Below, one piece after another: positions 42,683 through 51,842 of a DNA stretch of 64,000 nt. How positions within the stretch are numbered: the first letter of the stretch is position 1; each line of letters starts with the position of its first letter. The notes below the pieces were generated by a model. The model did not search any database. It saw nothing but the letters and a program-made list of their open reading frames with translations, and had not been told where the DNA came from. Origin of the DNA: Malaciobacter halophilus (GTDB lineage: Bacteria > Campylobacterota > Campylobacteria > Campylobacterales > Arcobacteraceae); NCBI RefSeq assembly GCF_002837275.1, contig NZ_NXIF01000027.1:62001-126000 (forward strand), given 5' to 3'. Position numbers and translations under genes: made by a program.

Positions 42683-42711
42683 TTTTAGTACTACTTTTAG
42701 TACTACTAAAA
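42683..42711 (+). promoter_or_regulatory. Tandem repeat with perfect palindrome, probable operator of the RHH gene
   Basis: TTTTAGTACTAC occurs twice head to tail (42683-42694 and 42695-42706). The second copy extends into a perfect palindrome, TTTTAGTA-C-TACTAAAA (42695-42711). It ends 22 bp before the start of the 77-aa ribbon-helix-helix gene. Dimeric RHH repressors bind exactly such repeated half-sites, so autoregulation of this two-gene unit is likely. Confidence 0.6.
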
Positions 42712-42732: not shown

Positions 42733-42966
42733 ATGGCAAAGCAAAAACATAAAAGAAAAGTAATTAGAAATGTAATTGACAAACATACTAAAAATGGTAA
42801 AAAAGAGATATCACAACTTACAATTAAGATTGATAAAAAATTGGATAATGCTTTAATTGTTTTATCAAATGAAATTAATATCTCTAAAAATAGACTAATT
42901 GAAGATATATTGTATGAGAGCGGGATACTTCAAGAAGTTGATGAAAATTATGAAGGAGTAGAGTAA
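42733..42966 (+). CDS. Small ribbon-helix-helix (CopG/MetJ-like) DNA-binding protein
   Basis: A 77-aa protein. A basic N-terminal tail (KQKHKRKVIRN) precedes the beta strand QLTIKIDKKLDN (about 28-39) and two helices (ALIVLSNEINISKNRLIEDIL), the pattern of antitoxin-type RHH repressors. AGGA precedes the ATG and a tandem palindromic repeat lies just upstream. Its stop overlaps the next gene's ATG by 1 bp, so the pair is translated together. This layout is like that of toxin-antitoxin operons, although the partner is not a known toxin. Confidence 0.75.
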   Translation: MAKQKHKRKVIRNVIDKHTKNGKKEISQLTIKIDKKLDNALIVLSNEINISKNRLIEDILYESGILQEVDENYEGVE

Positions 42967-43625
42967 TGAGTAGTTTTCCTTCTCAAGAAAAAATAATTAA
43001 GTGTGTTTTAGATGGAATAATTACAGCTAAAAATAACTTTACTTTTTGGACTGCTGATGAACTTTACTTATCATATGCGCCACCAAAATTTTTAACTATT
43101 CATGTATCTCAAGAAATATCAAAACTTAAAGATGCACCTGAAATATTTATTGATGCAACTATTGCAGATATACTTAGATGCTCTTTACCTTCAAGAGATG
43201 CTTTTAGAGAGTTTATGAAAAAAAGATATTTATCACAAGATGTTTTATGTTTAACATTAGATGAAAGATTTGAACATAAAAGTGATAATGATTCTATTTC
43301 TAGAGTTATAATGAGTATTAAAAATGGTGTTAGAAATGTTAAGGAGGAGTACAAATATGAGATAGAAAAAATGTGTAAAATGCTTTATAGAAATAAGTTG
43401 GATGATTCAACTTTAGATTATGCAATTTTCGCATTTTATTTAGATATTTCAAATAGTGATAGAAAGAAAAGTGAGCAAAGACTAAAAGAGATTACAGAAT
43501 CTTTTGATAAAATAGTATACTCATTTGAAAACTTAGAATCAAGATTTGAAGGAGGGAAGGTAAATATCATACCAAATATTGGTGAATGGGCAGTTGGTTG
43601 CTATATAATCGAGCCTAAGTTTTAA
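42966..43625 (+). CDS. Unknown 219-aa protein partnered with the RHH regulator
   Basis: No family was recognised. The N-terminal half contains FTFWTADELYLSYAPPKFLT (about 21-40), a Trp/Pro-rich segment leading into helical sequence, and FIDATIADILRCSLPSRDAF (about 58-77). The C-terminal half is charged and helical, ending in a compact hydrophobic piece (IGEWAVGCYIIEPKF). There is no signal peptide or membrane segment. AAGGAG precedes the ATG and the gene overlaps the RHH gene by 1 bp; livK starts 18 bp later. It may be a toxin-like effector or a co-regulator of the liv operon. Confidence 0.65.
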   Translation: MSSFPSQEKIIKCVLDGIITAKNNFTFWTADELYLSYAPPKFLTIHVSQEISKLKDAPEIFIDATIADILRCSLPSRDAFREFMKKRYLSQDVLCLTLDERFEHKSDNDSISRVIMSIKNGVRNVKEEYKYEIEKMCKMLYRNKLDDSTLDYAIFAFYLDISNSDRKKSEQRLKEITESFDKIVYSFENLESRFEGGKVNIIPNIGEWAVGCYIIEPKF

Positions 43626-46647: not shown

Positions 46648-47426
46648 TGAAATATGTATTAGAGATTGAAAATGTTTCAAAGCTGTTCTTTGGATTAGTT
46701 GCTATTGATAATTTGACAATAAAAGTTAAACCAGGACAAATTTATGGAATTATTGGACCAAATGGAGCTGGTAAAACAACACTATTTAATTGTGTTACTG
46801 GGATTTACAAACCAGAAAAAGGAACAATAAAATATAAAGGCGAAGATATTACAGGAATGTCTTCTTATAAAATTGCACAAAAGGGTGTATTAAGAACTTT
46901 CCAAAATATTAGACTTTTTAAAGAGATGAGTGTTGCAGAAAATATTATGGCAGGTTGCCATACAAAATCTAAACAAAAATGGTATCACTCTATTATTCAT
47001 ACTCCTTTTTATAAAAAAGATAATGAAGCTAGTTGGAAGACAGTTGAAGAATTAATGGAGTTTTTTAATCTTACTAAGTTTGCATTAACTCCCGTAGGAG
47101 ATTTATCATATGGGAATCAAAGAAAAGTAGAAATGGCAAGAGCATTAGCTGCTAAACCTGAGCTTTTGATATTAGATGAGCCAGCTGCTGGCTTAAATGA
47201 GAATGAAACAATTGAACTTACAAATATAATCTTAAAAATCAAGGAAATGGGACTTGGGATTATGATGATTGAACATGATATGGATATGGTTATGAAATTA
47301 ACAGATTATATAACTGTAATTAATTTTGGAAAAGAGATTTCTCAAGGTATTCCAAGTTTTGTTCAAGATGACCCAAGAGTAATTGAAGCATATATTGGAA
47401 GTGATGATGATGAGGATGAAGAGTAA
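46647..47426 (+). CDS. livG: Branched-chain amino acid ABC ATPase LivG
   Basis: First ATPase of the liv importer. The ATG at 46647 overlaps the livM stop and is preceded by AAGGAG; an in-frame GTG three bases upstream is less likely. Walker A is GPNGAGKTT (about 37-45), then LRTFQNIRLFKEMSV (about 85-99), LSYGNQRKVEMARALA and LLILDEPAAGLNENE, all typical of LivG. The C-terminus is acidic (GSDDDEDEE). It overlaps livF by 1 bp. Confidence 0.94.
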   Translation: MKYVLEIENVSKLFFGLVAIDNLTIKVKPGQIYGIIGPNGAGKTTLFNCVTGIYKPEKGTIKYKGEDITGMSSYKIAQKGVLRTFQNIRLFKEMSVAENIMAGCHTKSKQKWYHSIIHTPFYKKDNEASWKTVEELMEFFNLTKFALTPVGDLSYGNQRKVEMARALAAKPELLILDEPAAGLNENETIELTNIILKIKEMGLGIMMIEHDMDMVMKLTDYITVINFGKEISQGIPSFVQDDPRVIEAYIGSDDDEDEE

Positions 47427-48145
47427 TGCAAACTGAAATTTTATTAGATGTAAGAGATTTACATGTAAGTTACGGAGCTATTGCTGCAATCAAAGGAATT
47501 TCTTTGAAAGTTCATAAAGGTGAGGTTGTTACAATTCTTGGAGCAAATGGTGCAGGTAAAACAACAACTTTAAAAACTATTTCTGGATTATTAAAATCAA
47601 AATCAGGAAATATTATATTTGATAAAAATGATATTACAAATACACCTGCACATGATATTGTAAGTTTAGGGATGTCTCACTCTCCTGAAGGAAGAAGAGT
47701 TTTTGGGACTTTAACTGTTGAAGAAAATCTCATGATGGGTGCATATACTTTAAAAGACCATGATAAGGAGACTTTGGAGTGGATTTATGATATTTTACCA
47801 AGATTAAAAGAGAGAAGAAAACAACTTGCAGGAACTTTAAGTGGAGGTGAGCAACAAATGCTTGCAATTGGTAGAGCTATTATGAGTAAACCCAAACTTC
47901 TTATATTAGATGAACCAAGTTTAGGTCTTGCTCCAATTTTAGTAAAAGCTATTTTTAAAGCAGTAAAAGAGATTGCTCAAAGTGGCGTAACAGTACTAAT
48001 TGTTGAACAAAATGCAAAAGCTGCATTGAAATTAGCAAATAGAGGTTATGTTCTTGAAGTTGGAAAGATTACCCATGAAGGTACATCACAAGAGTTATTA
48101 AGCTCAGAAGCAATTCAAGAAGCATATTTAGGTAAAAAACACTAA
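47426..48145 (+). CDS. livF: Branched-chain amino acid ABC ATPase LivF
   Basis: Second ATPase of the liv importer, 239 aa. Walker A is GANGAGKTT (about 38-46), followed by SHSPEGRRVFGTLTVEENL (about 84-102), the signature LSGGEQQMLAIGRA (about 138-151), LLILDEPSLGLAPILV and VEQNAKAALKLANRGYVLE. It is the last gene of livKHMGF. No simple terminator follows; instead a folded element lies before putA. Confidence 0.95.
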   Translation: MQTEILLDVRDLHVSYGAIAAIKGISLKVHKGEVVTILGANGAGKTTTLKTISGLLKSKSGNIIFDKNDITNTPAHDIVSLGMSHSPEGRRVFGTLTVEENLMMGAYTLKDHDKETLEWIYDILPRLKERRKQLAGTLSGGEQQMLAIGRAIMSKPKLLILDEPSLGLAPILVKAIFKAVKEIAQSGVTVLIVEQNAKAALKLANRGYVLEVGKITHEGTSQELLSSEAIQEAYLGKKH

Positions 48146-48150
48146 AGTTA

Positions 48151-48222
48151 TAAGTAGCAAGAGGGGCATACTTGGCGGTTGCTCCCCTCTGACACAGAAA
48201 ATTGTGCGTGTTAAGCTACTTA
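48151..48222 (+). ncRNA. Compact folded intergenic element between livF and putA
   Basis: Unlike the surrounding AT-rich DNA, this 72-nt segment is GC-rich and foldable. TAAGTAGC (48151-48158) pairs perfectly with GCTACTTA (48215-48222), enclosing two arms. These are AGAGGGG/CCCCTCT (48160-48166 with 48184-48190, 17-base loop) and CACA/TGTG (48193-48196 with 48203-48206). The CACA arm can also pair in another register, GACAC with GTGTT. No T-run follows, so it is not a simple terminator. Options are a riboswitch-like leader of putA, an RNA-processing element, or a short mobile repeat with 8-bp ends. It matches no riboswitch consensus I know. Confidence 0.5.
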
Positions 48223-48260
48223 AAATTTATTTAAAACTCAATTAATTTTAAGGATATAGT

Positions 48261-51200
48261 ATGAAAAATGAACAAGAATTAATACAAAAAGCTGTAAATC
48301 TTGCGGAAAAATGGCAAAATAGAGCAACTGAACTTGTAAATGATTGGGATAAACAGTTCTCTATAAAAATGAAAAAAATGCTTGCACACCCAGAGGATAA
48401 AGCACTTTTAATAGAGTTAATGGATCAATGTTTTAGAACAAACTCTAATAAAAGAGTAGCAGACCAAATTATCTTTTTGCTTGAAAAACATGGAATGGCA
48501 CATTTTTTTACTACTAAAGATAAAACACTTTTATGGCTTTTTCAAAACTTTGGTAAATATTTACCAGATTTATCAGTTCCTTTATTTGTTAATCAAATTA
48601 GAGAAGATACAAAAACAGTTGTAATTAAAGGTGAAGATGAGCCTTTTAATGAACACTTAGAAAAAAGAAAAAAAGAGGGAACTAGAATCAATATTAATCT
48701 TATTGGTGAAGTTGTTCTTGGTGAAGATGAAGCAGAAGAGAGAATTCAAAAATATTTAAAAGCTTTAGAAAATCCAAATATTGATTATATTTCTATTAAA
48801 ATATCTACAATATATTCACAAATAAATTCAATGGATTTTGAAGCAACAGTTTCAACTTTAGTTAATAAACTAACAAGAATTTATGAGCAAGCAAAAAAGT
48901 ACCCATATATTGCCCCAGATGGTACAAAAACAAATAAGTTTATAAACTTAGATATGGAAGAGTATAAAGATTTAACAATTACTGTAGAAGTATTTAAAAG
49001 AACACTCTCTTTGCCTCAATTTAAAGATTTTTATGCAGGAATAGTTCTTCAAGCTTATATCCCAGATTCATTTTTAGTTCAAAAAGATTTATGCCAATGG
49101 GCTAAACAAAGAGTAAATGAGGGCGGAAGTCCTATTAAATTTAGATTAGTAAAAGGTGCTAATATGGAGATGGAAGAGACAGAAGCATCTCAAAAGCACT
49201 GGCAAATGGTAACTTATACAAATAAAAGTCATAGTGATGCAAACTATAAAAGAATGGTAAAGTATGCACTTGATAAAGATAATGCTACTTATATGCATGT
49301 AGGAACAGCTTCTCATAATCTATTTGAGTTAGCATTTGCAACAGTTTTAGCTGAACATAATGCAACTACAAAGTTTCATACTTTAGAGATGTTAGAAGGA
49401 ATGAGCGAATCAGCAAGACTAGCAATCAATGAAATTTCAAAAGATGTAATCTTATATGCACCAACTGCTGCAAGAGAACAGTTTACAAATGCTATTGCAT
49501 ATTTAGTTAGAAGATTAGATGAGAATACTGGGCCAAATAACTTTATTAGATACTCTTTTGGATTAAAAGTTGGAACAAAAGATTGGAATGACCAAAAAGC
49601 ACTATTTATAAAATCTTTTGCTTTAGAAGATGAAGCTTTTATTGGAAGTTTTAGAACTCAAAATAGATTAACAGAAAAATGGGATACTTTTAATAACTCT
49701 TCATATGATACAAATGAGTATCATGCTGAAGCAGACACGGACTTTATATTATCTCAAAATCAAAAGTGGGCAAGACAAATTGTTAAAAAATGGCAATTTA
49801 CAAAAGATACTACACATGAAACTAAACCAATAGTTGTAGCAGGAAAAGAGATTGTAACTGGAAGAAAAGTTTACAAAGCATTAGATAAATCACAGTTAAA
49901 AGATGAAGTTTTAGCTGGTAAGTTTGCAATGGCCAATGAAGATGATTTGAAAAGAGCTGTTGAAACTGCTAAAGCTGATGTTGATGGTTGGAGAGCTAAA
50001 ACATATGAACAAAGACATGCTATTTTAAAACAAGCAGCAATTAAAGTAAGGGAAAGAAGAGGTGACTTAATAGGTATAGCAGCTGCAGAAGTTGGTAAAG
50101 TATTTACGGAAACTGATGTAGAAGTTAGTGAAGCTGTTGATTTTATCGAGTTTTATTCTCATTCATCAAGATATTTTGAGAAATATACAAACTTACAATT
50201 TAAAGGAAAAGGTGTAGGTGTGGTTATTCCTCCTTGGAATTTCCCTGTTGCAATTCCTTTAGGAGGAGTAGCAGCTACTTTAGCAGCTGGAAATACAGTA
50301 ATTATTAAACCTGCAACAGTTGCAGCACTTACAGCATATGAAATGTGCAAATGTTTTTGGGATGCTGGAATATCAAAAAATGTGTTACAGTTTGTGCCTT
50401 GTCCTGGAGTATTAGCAGGTGAGCATTTAGTTGCAAATGAAGATGTTGATTATGTGATTTTAACAGGTGGAGAAGATACAGCAGCATCAATGCTTGAAAC
50501 AAGACCTAATCTATTTTTAACTGCTGAAACAGGTGGAAAAGATGCAACTATTGTTACAAATATGGCAGATAGAGATCAAGCAATCAAAAATATTTGTCAA
50601 AGTGCTTTTGGTAACTCTGGTCAAAAATGTAGTGCAACTTCACTTCTTGTTTTGGAAGAAGAGGTTTATAATGATGAAAGCTTTAAAAAGGCACTTGTTG
50701 ACGCTGCTAAGTCTATGAGTGTTGGTTCTGTTTGGAATTTAAAAAATAGAATAGGTACTTTAGCAAATAGTGTGTCTGGAAAATTGAAAGAAGCGATTGA
50801 AAATCTTGAAGAAGGTGAAGAGTGGGCATTAGCACCATCTTTTGCACAAGACAATGAATATATGTTAAAACCATCAATAAAATGGAATGTAAAAGAAGGA
50901 AGTTTTATTCATATGAATGAACTTTTTGGACCAGTACTTGCTGTTATGAAAGCAAGAAATTTAAAGCATGCAGTAGATATTGTAAATGCAACAGGTTACG
51001 GACTTACTTCTGGTATTGAATCTTTAGATGAAAGAGAAGTTAATTATTGGAAAGAGCATATAAAAGCTGGTAATTTATATGTAAACAGAGGAACAACAGG
51101 AGCGATTGTTTTAAGACAACCTTTTGGAGGAATGGGCAAATCTGCAATTGGTGCAGGAAGAAAAGTTGGTATTTACAACTATATAACACAATTTGTTGAT

Positions 51201-51842
51201 TTTGAAGAAGTAGCAAAACCAGAGATAACAAAAAGTTTTCATACTGATTTAAGTAGATTTATTAGTCATTGTAAAGATAAGTATATAAATGACAAAGAAG
51301 ATTTTGAAAAACTTGAAGTTGCATTGCAATCTTATTATTATAATTTAAATACAGAGTTTAATAAACAAAAAGATTATTTTAAAGTAAGAGGAGAAGATAA
51401 TCATTTTAGATATATACCTTTAAATAGAGTAATTATTAGAGTTAGTGATGATGATACTTTATTTGAAGTAGTTAGTAGAGTTTTAGCTGCAAGAGTATCT
51501 AAAGTTCATTTTACTGTATCAATTAATAATAATGATAAAGTAGAAGAGTTTTTTAAAGAAGCTACTATTTTATTTTCATCAAAAGATAGATTAGTAAAAC
51601 ATACAGATGAGAAACTTGCAAATGTAATAGGAAGTTATGAAAGGGTAATTTATTCTGACATATCAAAAGTTCCTGATACTATTTTTAAAGCAGCCAGTAA
51701 GCATCTTGGGACATTTATTGTTAGAATGAAACCTATGATGGAAGGAAGATTAGAGCTTCTAAATTATTTTAAAGAACAAAGTATTTCTCATTCATACCAT
51801 AGATATGGAAATATTGGGGCAAGAGAGTATAGTAAAAAGTAA
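48261..51842 (+). CDS. putA: Bifunctional proline dehydrogenase / glutamate semialdehyde dehydrogenase
   Basis: PutA oxidises proline to glutamate in two steps, feeding electrons to the quinone pool and NAD. The 1193-aa protein has the proline dehydrogenase barrel (about 90-480, with FRLVKGANMEMEE and FGLKVGTKDWN). The aldehyde dehydrogenase domain (about 530-1000) has PPWNFPVAIPLGGVAATLAA, ETGGKDATIV with the general base Glu, and SGQKCSATS with the catalytic Cys. A C-terminal extension follows. There is no N-terminal RHH repressor domain as in E. coli PutA. AAGGA precedes the ATG, and a strong terminator overlaps the stop. Confidence 0.96.
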   Translation: MKNEQELIQKAVNLAEKWQNRATELVNDWDKQFSIKMKKMLAHPEDKALLIELMDQCFRTNSNKRVADQIIFLLEKHGMAHFFTTKDKTLLWLFQNFGKYLPDLSVPLFVNQIREDTKTVVIKGEDEPFNEHLEKRKKEGTRININLIGEVVLGEDEAEERIQKYLKALENPNIDYISIKISTIYSQINSMDFEATVSTLVNKLTRIYEQAKKYPYIAPDGTKTNKFINLDMEEYKDLTITVEVFKRTLSLPQFKDFYAGIVLQAYIPDSFLVQKDLCQWAKQRVNEGGSPIKFRLVKGANMEMEETEASQKHWQMVTYTNKSHSDANYKRMVKYALDKDNATYMHVGTASHNLFELAFATVLAEHNATTKFHTLEMLEGMSESARLAINEISKDVILYAPTAAREQFTNAIAYLVRRLDENTGPNNFIRYSFGLKVGTKDWNDQKALFIKSFALEDEAFIGSFRTQNRLTEKWDTFNNSSYDTNEYHAEADTDFILSQNQKWARQIVKKWQFTKDTTHETKPIVVAGKEIVTGRKVYKALDKSQLKDEVLAGKFAMANEDDLKRAVETAKADVDGWRAKTYEQRHAILKQAAIKVRERRGDLIGIAAAEVGKVFTETDVEVSEAVDFIEFYSHSSRYFEKYTNLQFKGKGVGVVIPPWNFPVAIPLGGVAATLAAGNTVIIKPATVAALTAYEMCKCFWDAGISKNVLQFVPCPGVLAGEHLVANEDVDYVILTGGEDTAASMLETRPNLFLTAETGGKDATIVTNMADRDQAIKNICQSAFGNSGQKCSATSLLVLEEEVYNDESFKKALVDAAKSMSVGSVWNLKNRIGTLANSVSGKLKEAIENLEEGEEWALAPSFAQDNEYMLKPSIKWNVKEGSFIHMNELFGPVLAVMKARNLKHAVDIVNATGYGLTSGIESLDEREVNYWKEHIKAGNLYVNRGTTGAIVLRQPFGGMGKSAIGAGRKVGIYNYITQFVDFEEVAKPEITKSFHTDLSRFISHCKDKYINDKEDFEKLEVALQSYYYNLNTEFNKQKDYFKVRGEDNHFRYIPLNRVIIRVSDDDTLFEVVSRVLAARVSKVHFTVSINNNDKVEEFFKEATILFSSKDRLVKHTDEKLANVIGSYERVIYSDISKVPDTIFKAASKHLGTFIVRMKPMMEGRLELLNYFKEQSISHSYHRYGNIGAREYSKK

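Follow-up and report, generated by a model that had tools for sequence, protein, structure and literature searches.

Organization of the liv-putA operon

The window, by which we mean the whole 64,000-nucleotide stretch of Malaciobacter halophilus DNA that was analyzed, carries an operon in which a tandem repeat is followed by a gene for a ribbon-helix-helix (RHH)-like protein, a gene for a 219-aa protein, livJ, livH, livM, livG, livF, and, in the last position, putA. The operon features used below are listed here.

42687–42706, + strand: tandem operator-like repeat AGTACTACTTTTAGTACTAC (GTACTAC repeat), at the operon head
42733–42966, + strand: 77-aa RHH-like protein that probably regulates transcription of the liv-putA operon
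42966–43625: 219-aa protein, no Pfam match, encoded between the RHH-like gene and livJ
47426–48145, + strand: livF, the upstream neighbor, ending 5 nt before the element
48261–51842, + strand: putA, proline dehydrogenase/glutamate-semialdehyde dehydrogenase of 1193 aa (Pfam Pro_dh and Aldedh)

The element studied here is about 72 nt long (48151–48222) and lies in the gap between the end of livF (48145) and the start of putA (48261).

The PutA protein of E. coli regulates its own expression at the DNA level through an N-terminal RHH domain. Pfam detected no RHH domain in the PutA of the window, and the RHH-like protein at the operon head is the probable proline-operon regulator equivalent to the domain that is fused to E. 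coli PutA. Its family is present in 43 of the 104 Arcobacteraceae genomes, all of which are putA-positive, and Pfam RHH_1 is found in 3 of its 33 relatives. An AlphaFold prediction from the single sequence gave a long helix and was uninformative; the prediction with 33 relatives gave a beta-alpha-alpha-like core with weak Foldseek matches, mostly to RHH proteins. The arrangement resembles the E. coli type in that RHH-type control is linked to putA, the tandem operator and the RHH-like protein occurring only in putA-positive genomes. Unlike the E. coli type, the RHH is a separate protein encoded at the operon head and putA also carries an RNA element.

Structure of the element

The element is predicted to fold into three arms around a junction.

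48151–48158, + strand: P1 5′ strand TAAGTAGC, nearly invariant in sequence among 29 homologues
48160–48190, + strand: P2 hairpin, AGAGGGG (48160–48166) with CCCCTCT (48184–48190), 7 bp and a 17-nt loop
48170–48179, + strand: P2 cap ACUUGGCGGU, with an ACU/GGU mini-stem and a UGGC loop
48192–48211, + strand: P3 arm, ACAC (48192–48195) with GTGT (48208–48211)
48215–48222, + strand: P1 3′ strand GCTACTTA, forming 8 bp with 48151–48158; its CTTA also belongs to the 5′ strand of a further hairpin, P4

On the + strand, positions 48151–48222 read in the order TAAGTAGC, A, AGAGGGG, CAT, ACUUGGCGGU, UGCU, CCCCUCU, G, ACAC..GUGU, UAA, and GCUACUUA. Positions 48140–48235 have an MFE of −26.9 kcal/mol, whereas dinucleotide shuffles average −18.6 ± 2.75 (z −3.0) and only 1 in 200 of them is equally good, and the reverse strand of the element folds slightly more poorly (z −2.5).

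The 8-bp closing stem, the 7-bp hairpin with a 17-base loop, and the small arm agree with the description in an earlier note on this DNA. That note had also called the element GC-rich and not a terminator, and both statements hold: its G+C content is 0.49, compared to 0.17–0.46 in the surrounding 72-nt windows, and no G+C-rich stem followed by a T run, the mark of an intrinsic terminator, was found at the element. The comparison with Rfam that it had proposed matched no family, as Rfam 15 gave no match in the window at the gathering cut-off and a permissive local E-value scan gave chance matches only. The element is a real structured RNA that is absent from Rfam. The small arm had been said to switch register, and P3 does have a slipped alternative, CACA (48193–48196) with TGTG (48203–48206). 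Both registers can indeed form in the window and in several relatives, but the P3 sequence varies so strongly that a function of the slip is no more than possible.

The P2 cap ACUUGGCGGU is nearly invariant and is the most conserved unpaired part of the element, while the internal loop that flanks it is free to vary. Only L086, L087, and the decayed copies of genus g3 have degenerate caps. A possible kissing interaction of the P2 cap with the P3 loop was abandoned, as the P3 loop varies without matching changes in the cap.

Distribution in Arcobacteraceae

Related DNA before putA was first found in two congeners, and other Arcobacteraceae loci were then fetched via PutA. A covariance model built from the sequences of 13 relatives was run over 104 Arcobacteraceae genomes and matched 31 of them with one copy each, 30 of these matches being confident; M. 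halophilus itself has no second copy. All 30 confident copies lie directly before putA. In 29 cases the preceding gene is livF, and in the remaining one (L075, genome G098) it encodes another ABC-transporter ATPase; there the element has stayed with putA although the upstream transporter belongs to a different type. Of the 104 genomes, 49 encode PutA, and no confident element was found in the 55 putA-less ones (Fisher p 1.6e-13, computed without phylogenetic correction). A weak match in one putA-less genome (G032) has P2 unpaired and was taken as chance. No members outside Arcobacteraceae were found in overlapping order-level (399) and phylum-level (397) genome samples, for which stricter filters were used, so that strongly diverged copies may be missed. 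The element is restricted to one family and is decayed in some members. Copies in genus g3 and one related genome (L087, L088, L089, and L096) are decaying: they retain P1, P3, and the Shine-Dalgarno (SD) flank and have an eroded or missing P2 and cap.

Of the 30 genomes with the element, 27 have the RHH-like gene 3.9–5.6 kb upstream and in the same orientation, and in the remaining three it was not found or is located on a different contig. In five genomes that lack the element, the RHH gene and putA are divergently oriented, 222–244 bp apart, and operator-like repeats stand just upstream of putA in these five and in two others. Loci in which putA adjoins the regulator gene and has a tandem operator of its own lack the RNA element, which implies that the RNA belongs to putA as a distal operon gene.

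Covariation of the paired regions

Base pairing was assessed in a model-fitted alignment of 29 sequences and, separately, in a hand structural alignment combined with a PutA protein tree; in the tree-based null, columns were simulated independently along this tree. When RNAalifold was applied to a plain MAFFT alignment, misregistration of P2 and P3 led to a poor consensus fold, and the model-fitted and hand structural alignments were used for this reason. In the model-fitted alignment, 92% of the cells are paired, compared to 39–58% when the partner is slid by one column, and 53 cells show double changes, compared to 14 ± 4 in shuffles.

All four pairs of P3 covary (p about 0.001 or less under the tree-based null) with 16 independent double-change events, the P3 register having been chosen by hand in L066, L071, L082, and L084 in a way that leans toward pairing. 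Variants of this arm include ACAC/GUGU, GAGC/GCUC, AAGC/GCUU, and UUUG/CAAA. On the PutA tree, P2 shows 9 independent compensatory double changes, and P2 and P3 together show about 25. P1 hardly varies and is therefore weakly supported by covariation, its two inner pairs having 3 independent double changes between them. None of 150 control column pairs passed both tests. The stem cells contain 16 G-U compared to 6 A-C combinations, an excess that favors an RNA of the + strand.

Compensatory changes, whose absence the earlier note would have taken as evidence against the fold, are thus present across 29 relatives. As judged from these alignments, the results show that the three-way junction (P1, P2 with the ACUUGGCGGU cap, and P3) has been selected as a + strand RNA that is tied to putA. 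Genome comparison further indicates that the three-armed fold is kept for a single gene, that of proline breakdown, across many Arcobacter-like marine bacteria.

Predicted link to putA translation

The region between the element and the putA start codon contains the following features.

48219–48252, + strand: P4, predicted SD hairpin, CUUAAAAUU (48219–48227) with AAUUUUAAG (48244–48252)
48250–48254, + strand: conserved putA Shine-Dalgarno sequence AAGGA, 6 nt before the ATG at 48261

P4 and the outer part of P1 are predicted to be mutually exclusive, as P4 takes the CUU that closes P1 and covers the AAG of AAGGA. P1 is separated from the putA start codon by 37–41 nt, mostly 39, in the 30 confident copies. 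Most homologues can pair P4 (mean z −1.8); six, including three from the genus of the window, lack it or have an altered form. The P4 sequence is A/U-rich and has no clear covariation. With forced folding, the mean SD accessibility falls from 0.68 with the junction to 0.41 with P1 blocked, compared to a fall from 0.69 to 0.55 for shuffled linkers. The shift exceeds 0.15 in 22 of 29 homologues, with single sequences rarely beyond 5% of shuffles, and blocking P1 costs about 0.5–8 kcal/mol in silico. Since the P1 3′ strand is common to P4, which covers part of the SD, formation of P1 should favor translation. These modeling data, together with the similar linker and SD hairpin in two Sulfurospirillum putA leaders described below, support, without proving, a translational switch in which P1 is the ON state.

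Proposed role and alternative explanations

The element probably controls the amount of PutA that is made. A role in the control of putA, which the earlier note had proposed from position, is strongly supported by the placement of the copies before this gene, the fixed distance to the start codon, and the compensatory changes. In a more specific form, the element would act in cis, as a structured part of the liv-putA operon mRNA, and set putA translation through P1 and P4, a reading for which we see about equal chances of being right or wrong. A stable junction and P1 would make the CUU at the P1 end unavailable to P4, leaving AAGGA exposed and putA translated; when P1 opens, P4 would cover part of the Shine-Dalgarno sequence. 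In a weaker, further step, proline, pyrroline-5-carboxylate, or glutamate might stabilize the junction, and the element would then act as a translational ON riboswitch beneath a first layer of control, that of the whole operon by the upstream RHH regulator. The conserved loop bases and the overlap of P1 with the Shine-Dalgarno hairpin make ligand control plausible. Because the element never stands before another gene, gene context cannot identify a ligand, and to name proline or a metabolite of its pathway is to guess. We propose only tentatively, as the less probable outcome, that the Arcobacteraceae liv-putA operon contains a new riboswitch class which senses proline or a metabolite of proline catabolism and switches on putA translation under an RHH repressor.

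Control of putA translation could also be exerted by a protein (PutA, the 219-aa operon protein, or a general RNA-binding protein) that binds the junction or cap, a possibility that we regard as unlikely but deserving of serious attention. Association with a single gene and a narrow range are typical of autoregulatory leaders, a conserved cap loop atop a variable stem would suit protein binding, and autoregulation by PutA is known in E. coli, although at the DNA level. On the other side, Pfam shows no RNA-binding domain in PutA, and the 219-aa protein has no known domain and has relatives, as read by eye, that adjoin putA in element-less loci too. An intercistronic stability or processing element that sets the putA mRNA level apart from that of the liv genes seems rather improbable. 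Its position between two genes of one operon, without a terminator or strong promoter, and its absence where putA directly adjoins its own operator fit such a role, but a stabilizer would require neither the three-way junction nor the conserved cap, nor would it have to stand at a fixed 39 nt from the start codon.

The near invariance of the P1 arms and their resemblance to a half-site of the tandem operator raise the question of whether AAGTAG..CTACTT represents RHH regulator half-sites (a AGTAGTAC-like operator), with P2 and P3 incidental. We consider a DNA operator of this kind very unlikely, as the half-sites are about 58 nt apart, unlike known RHH operators, the arms in L068 have changed to AAGTAAC..GTTACTG while the GTACTAC operator is kept in that genome, and the covariation of P2 and P3 and the G-U bias are left unexplained. 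Even less credible is a leader-peptide attenuator that starts at the UUG of the P2 loop. The window does read TTG GCG GTT GCT CCC CTC TGA, with GAGGGG as a possible ribosome site before it, but UUG is replaced by CUG in L069, UUU in L086, and UUA in L087. Across the alignments, moreover, the frame ranges from six codons to past the end of the element and contains no run of proline codons, and a hidden leader peptide was dropped since neither start codon nor frame is conserved. The small mobile repeat with TAAGTAGC ends that the earlier note had offered as an alternative is refuted to the point of near certainty: it would account for the terminal inverted repeats, but the copy count revealed no scattered copies, and the single copy per genome, the constant site, and the compensatory changes together rule out both a mobile repeat and a chance fold.

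Comparison with known systems

Compared to translational ON riboswitches, in which a compact junction aptamer is coupled to competition between P1 and an SD hairpin, the element is alike in its three-way junction, its conserved loop bases, its metabolic gene, and the presence of the P1 3′ strand in a predicted SD-sequestering hairpin as well. Unlike the known examples, it is a candidate without a sequence or structure match in Rfam and is found with one gene, in one family, and inside an operon rather than at its 5′ end. It has a conserved aptamer-like domain with covariation and, in the genome sequences, a site directly before a metabolic gene (30 of 30). The element would work like a compact ON riboswitch but is filed as a candidate only, since ligand binding is the defining feature of the class.

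To our knowledge, few natural amino-acid riboswitches are known, namely those for lysine, glycine, and glutamine, and the phrase "proline riboswitch" was absent from the open literature searched. An RNA of about 72 nt with a single gene, a single pathway, and a strong covariation model offers a small list of ligands and a quick bench test. It would add a second, RNA layer to the control of proline use in a family whose regulation is little described, and its distribution shows that RNA control and a promoter-proximal DNA operator replace each other in nature.

A screen of GC-rich intergenic regions by the Breaker laboratory, which followed the same discovery logic as used here and included Arcobacter sp. 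L, describes in its main text most novel Arcobacter regions as rare, genus-confined, and unnamed (PMC6429828). Proline is unmentioned in that main text, and the element may have been sighted earlier among these unnamed regions. The proX and opuB riboswitch candidates are RNAs near genes for compatible-solute or proline-related transporters (PMC8632094, PMC11109978). They differ from the element in genes, hosts, and function, the likeness being one of proline-related gene context by description only.

Other arrangements upstream of putA

A conserved short frame, MRHKRR..KVQDLHKGQ, is present between an ABC-transporter ATPase gene and putA in L011, L012, L018, L088, L089, L093, and L096; most of the genomes with this frame have a decayed or shortened RNA element or none. 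Sequence related to the 219-aa protein stands directly before putA in L051 and L092. Many Sulfurospirillum loci (L027, L028, L049, and others) have a terminator after livF and then a AGTACTACTTTTAGTACTAC operator-like repeat before putA, which suggests that regulators of this family may also operate outside Arcobacteraceae. Two Sulfurospirillum putA leaders, L034 and L038, were excluded as members of the element: in the 130 bases upstream of putA they have the linker (similarity 19, compared to a shuffle expectation of 9.2 ± 1.7) and form the SD hairpin in common with it, but their upstream arms differ. They possibly carry a different sensor on the same expression platform.
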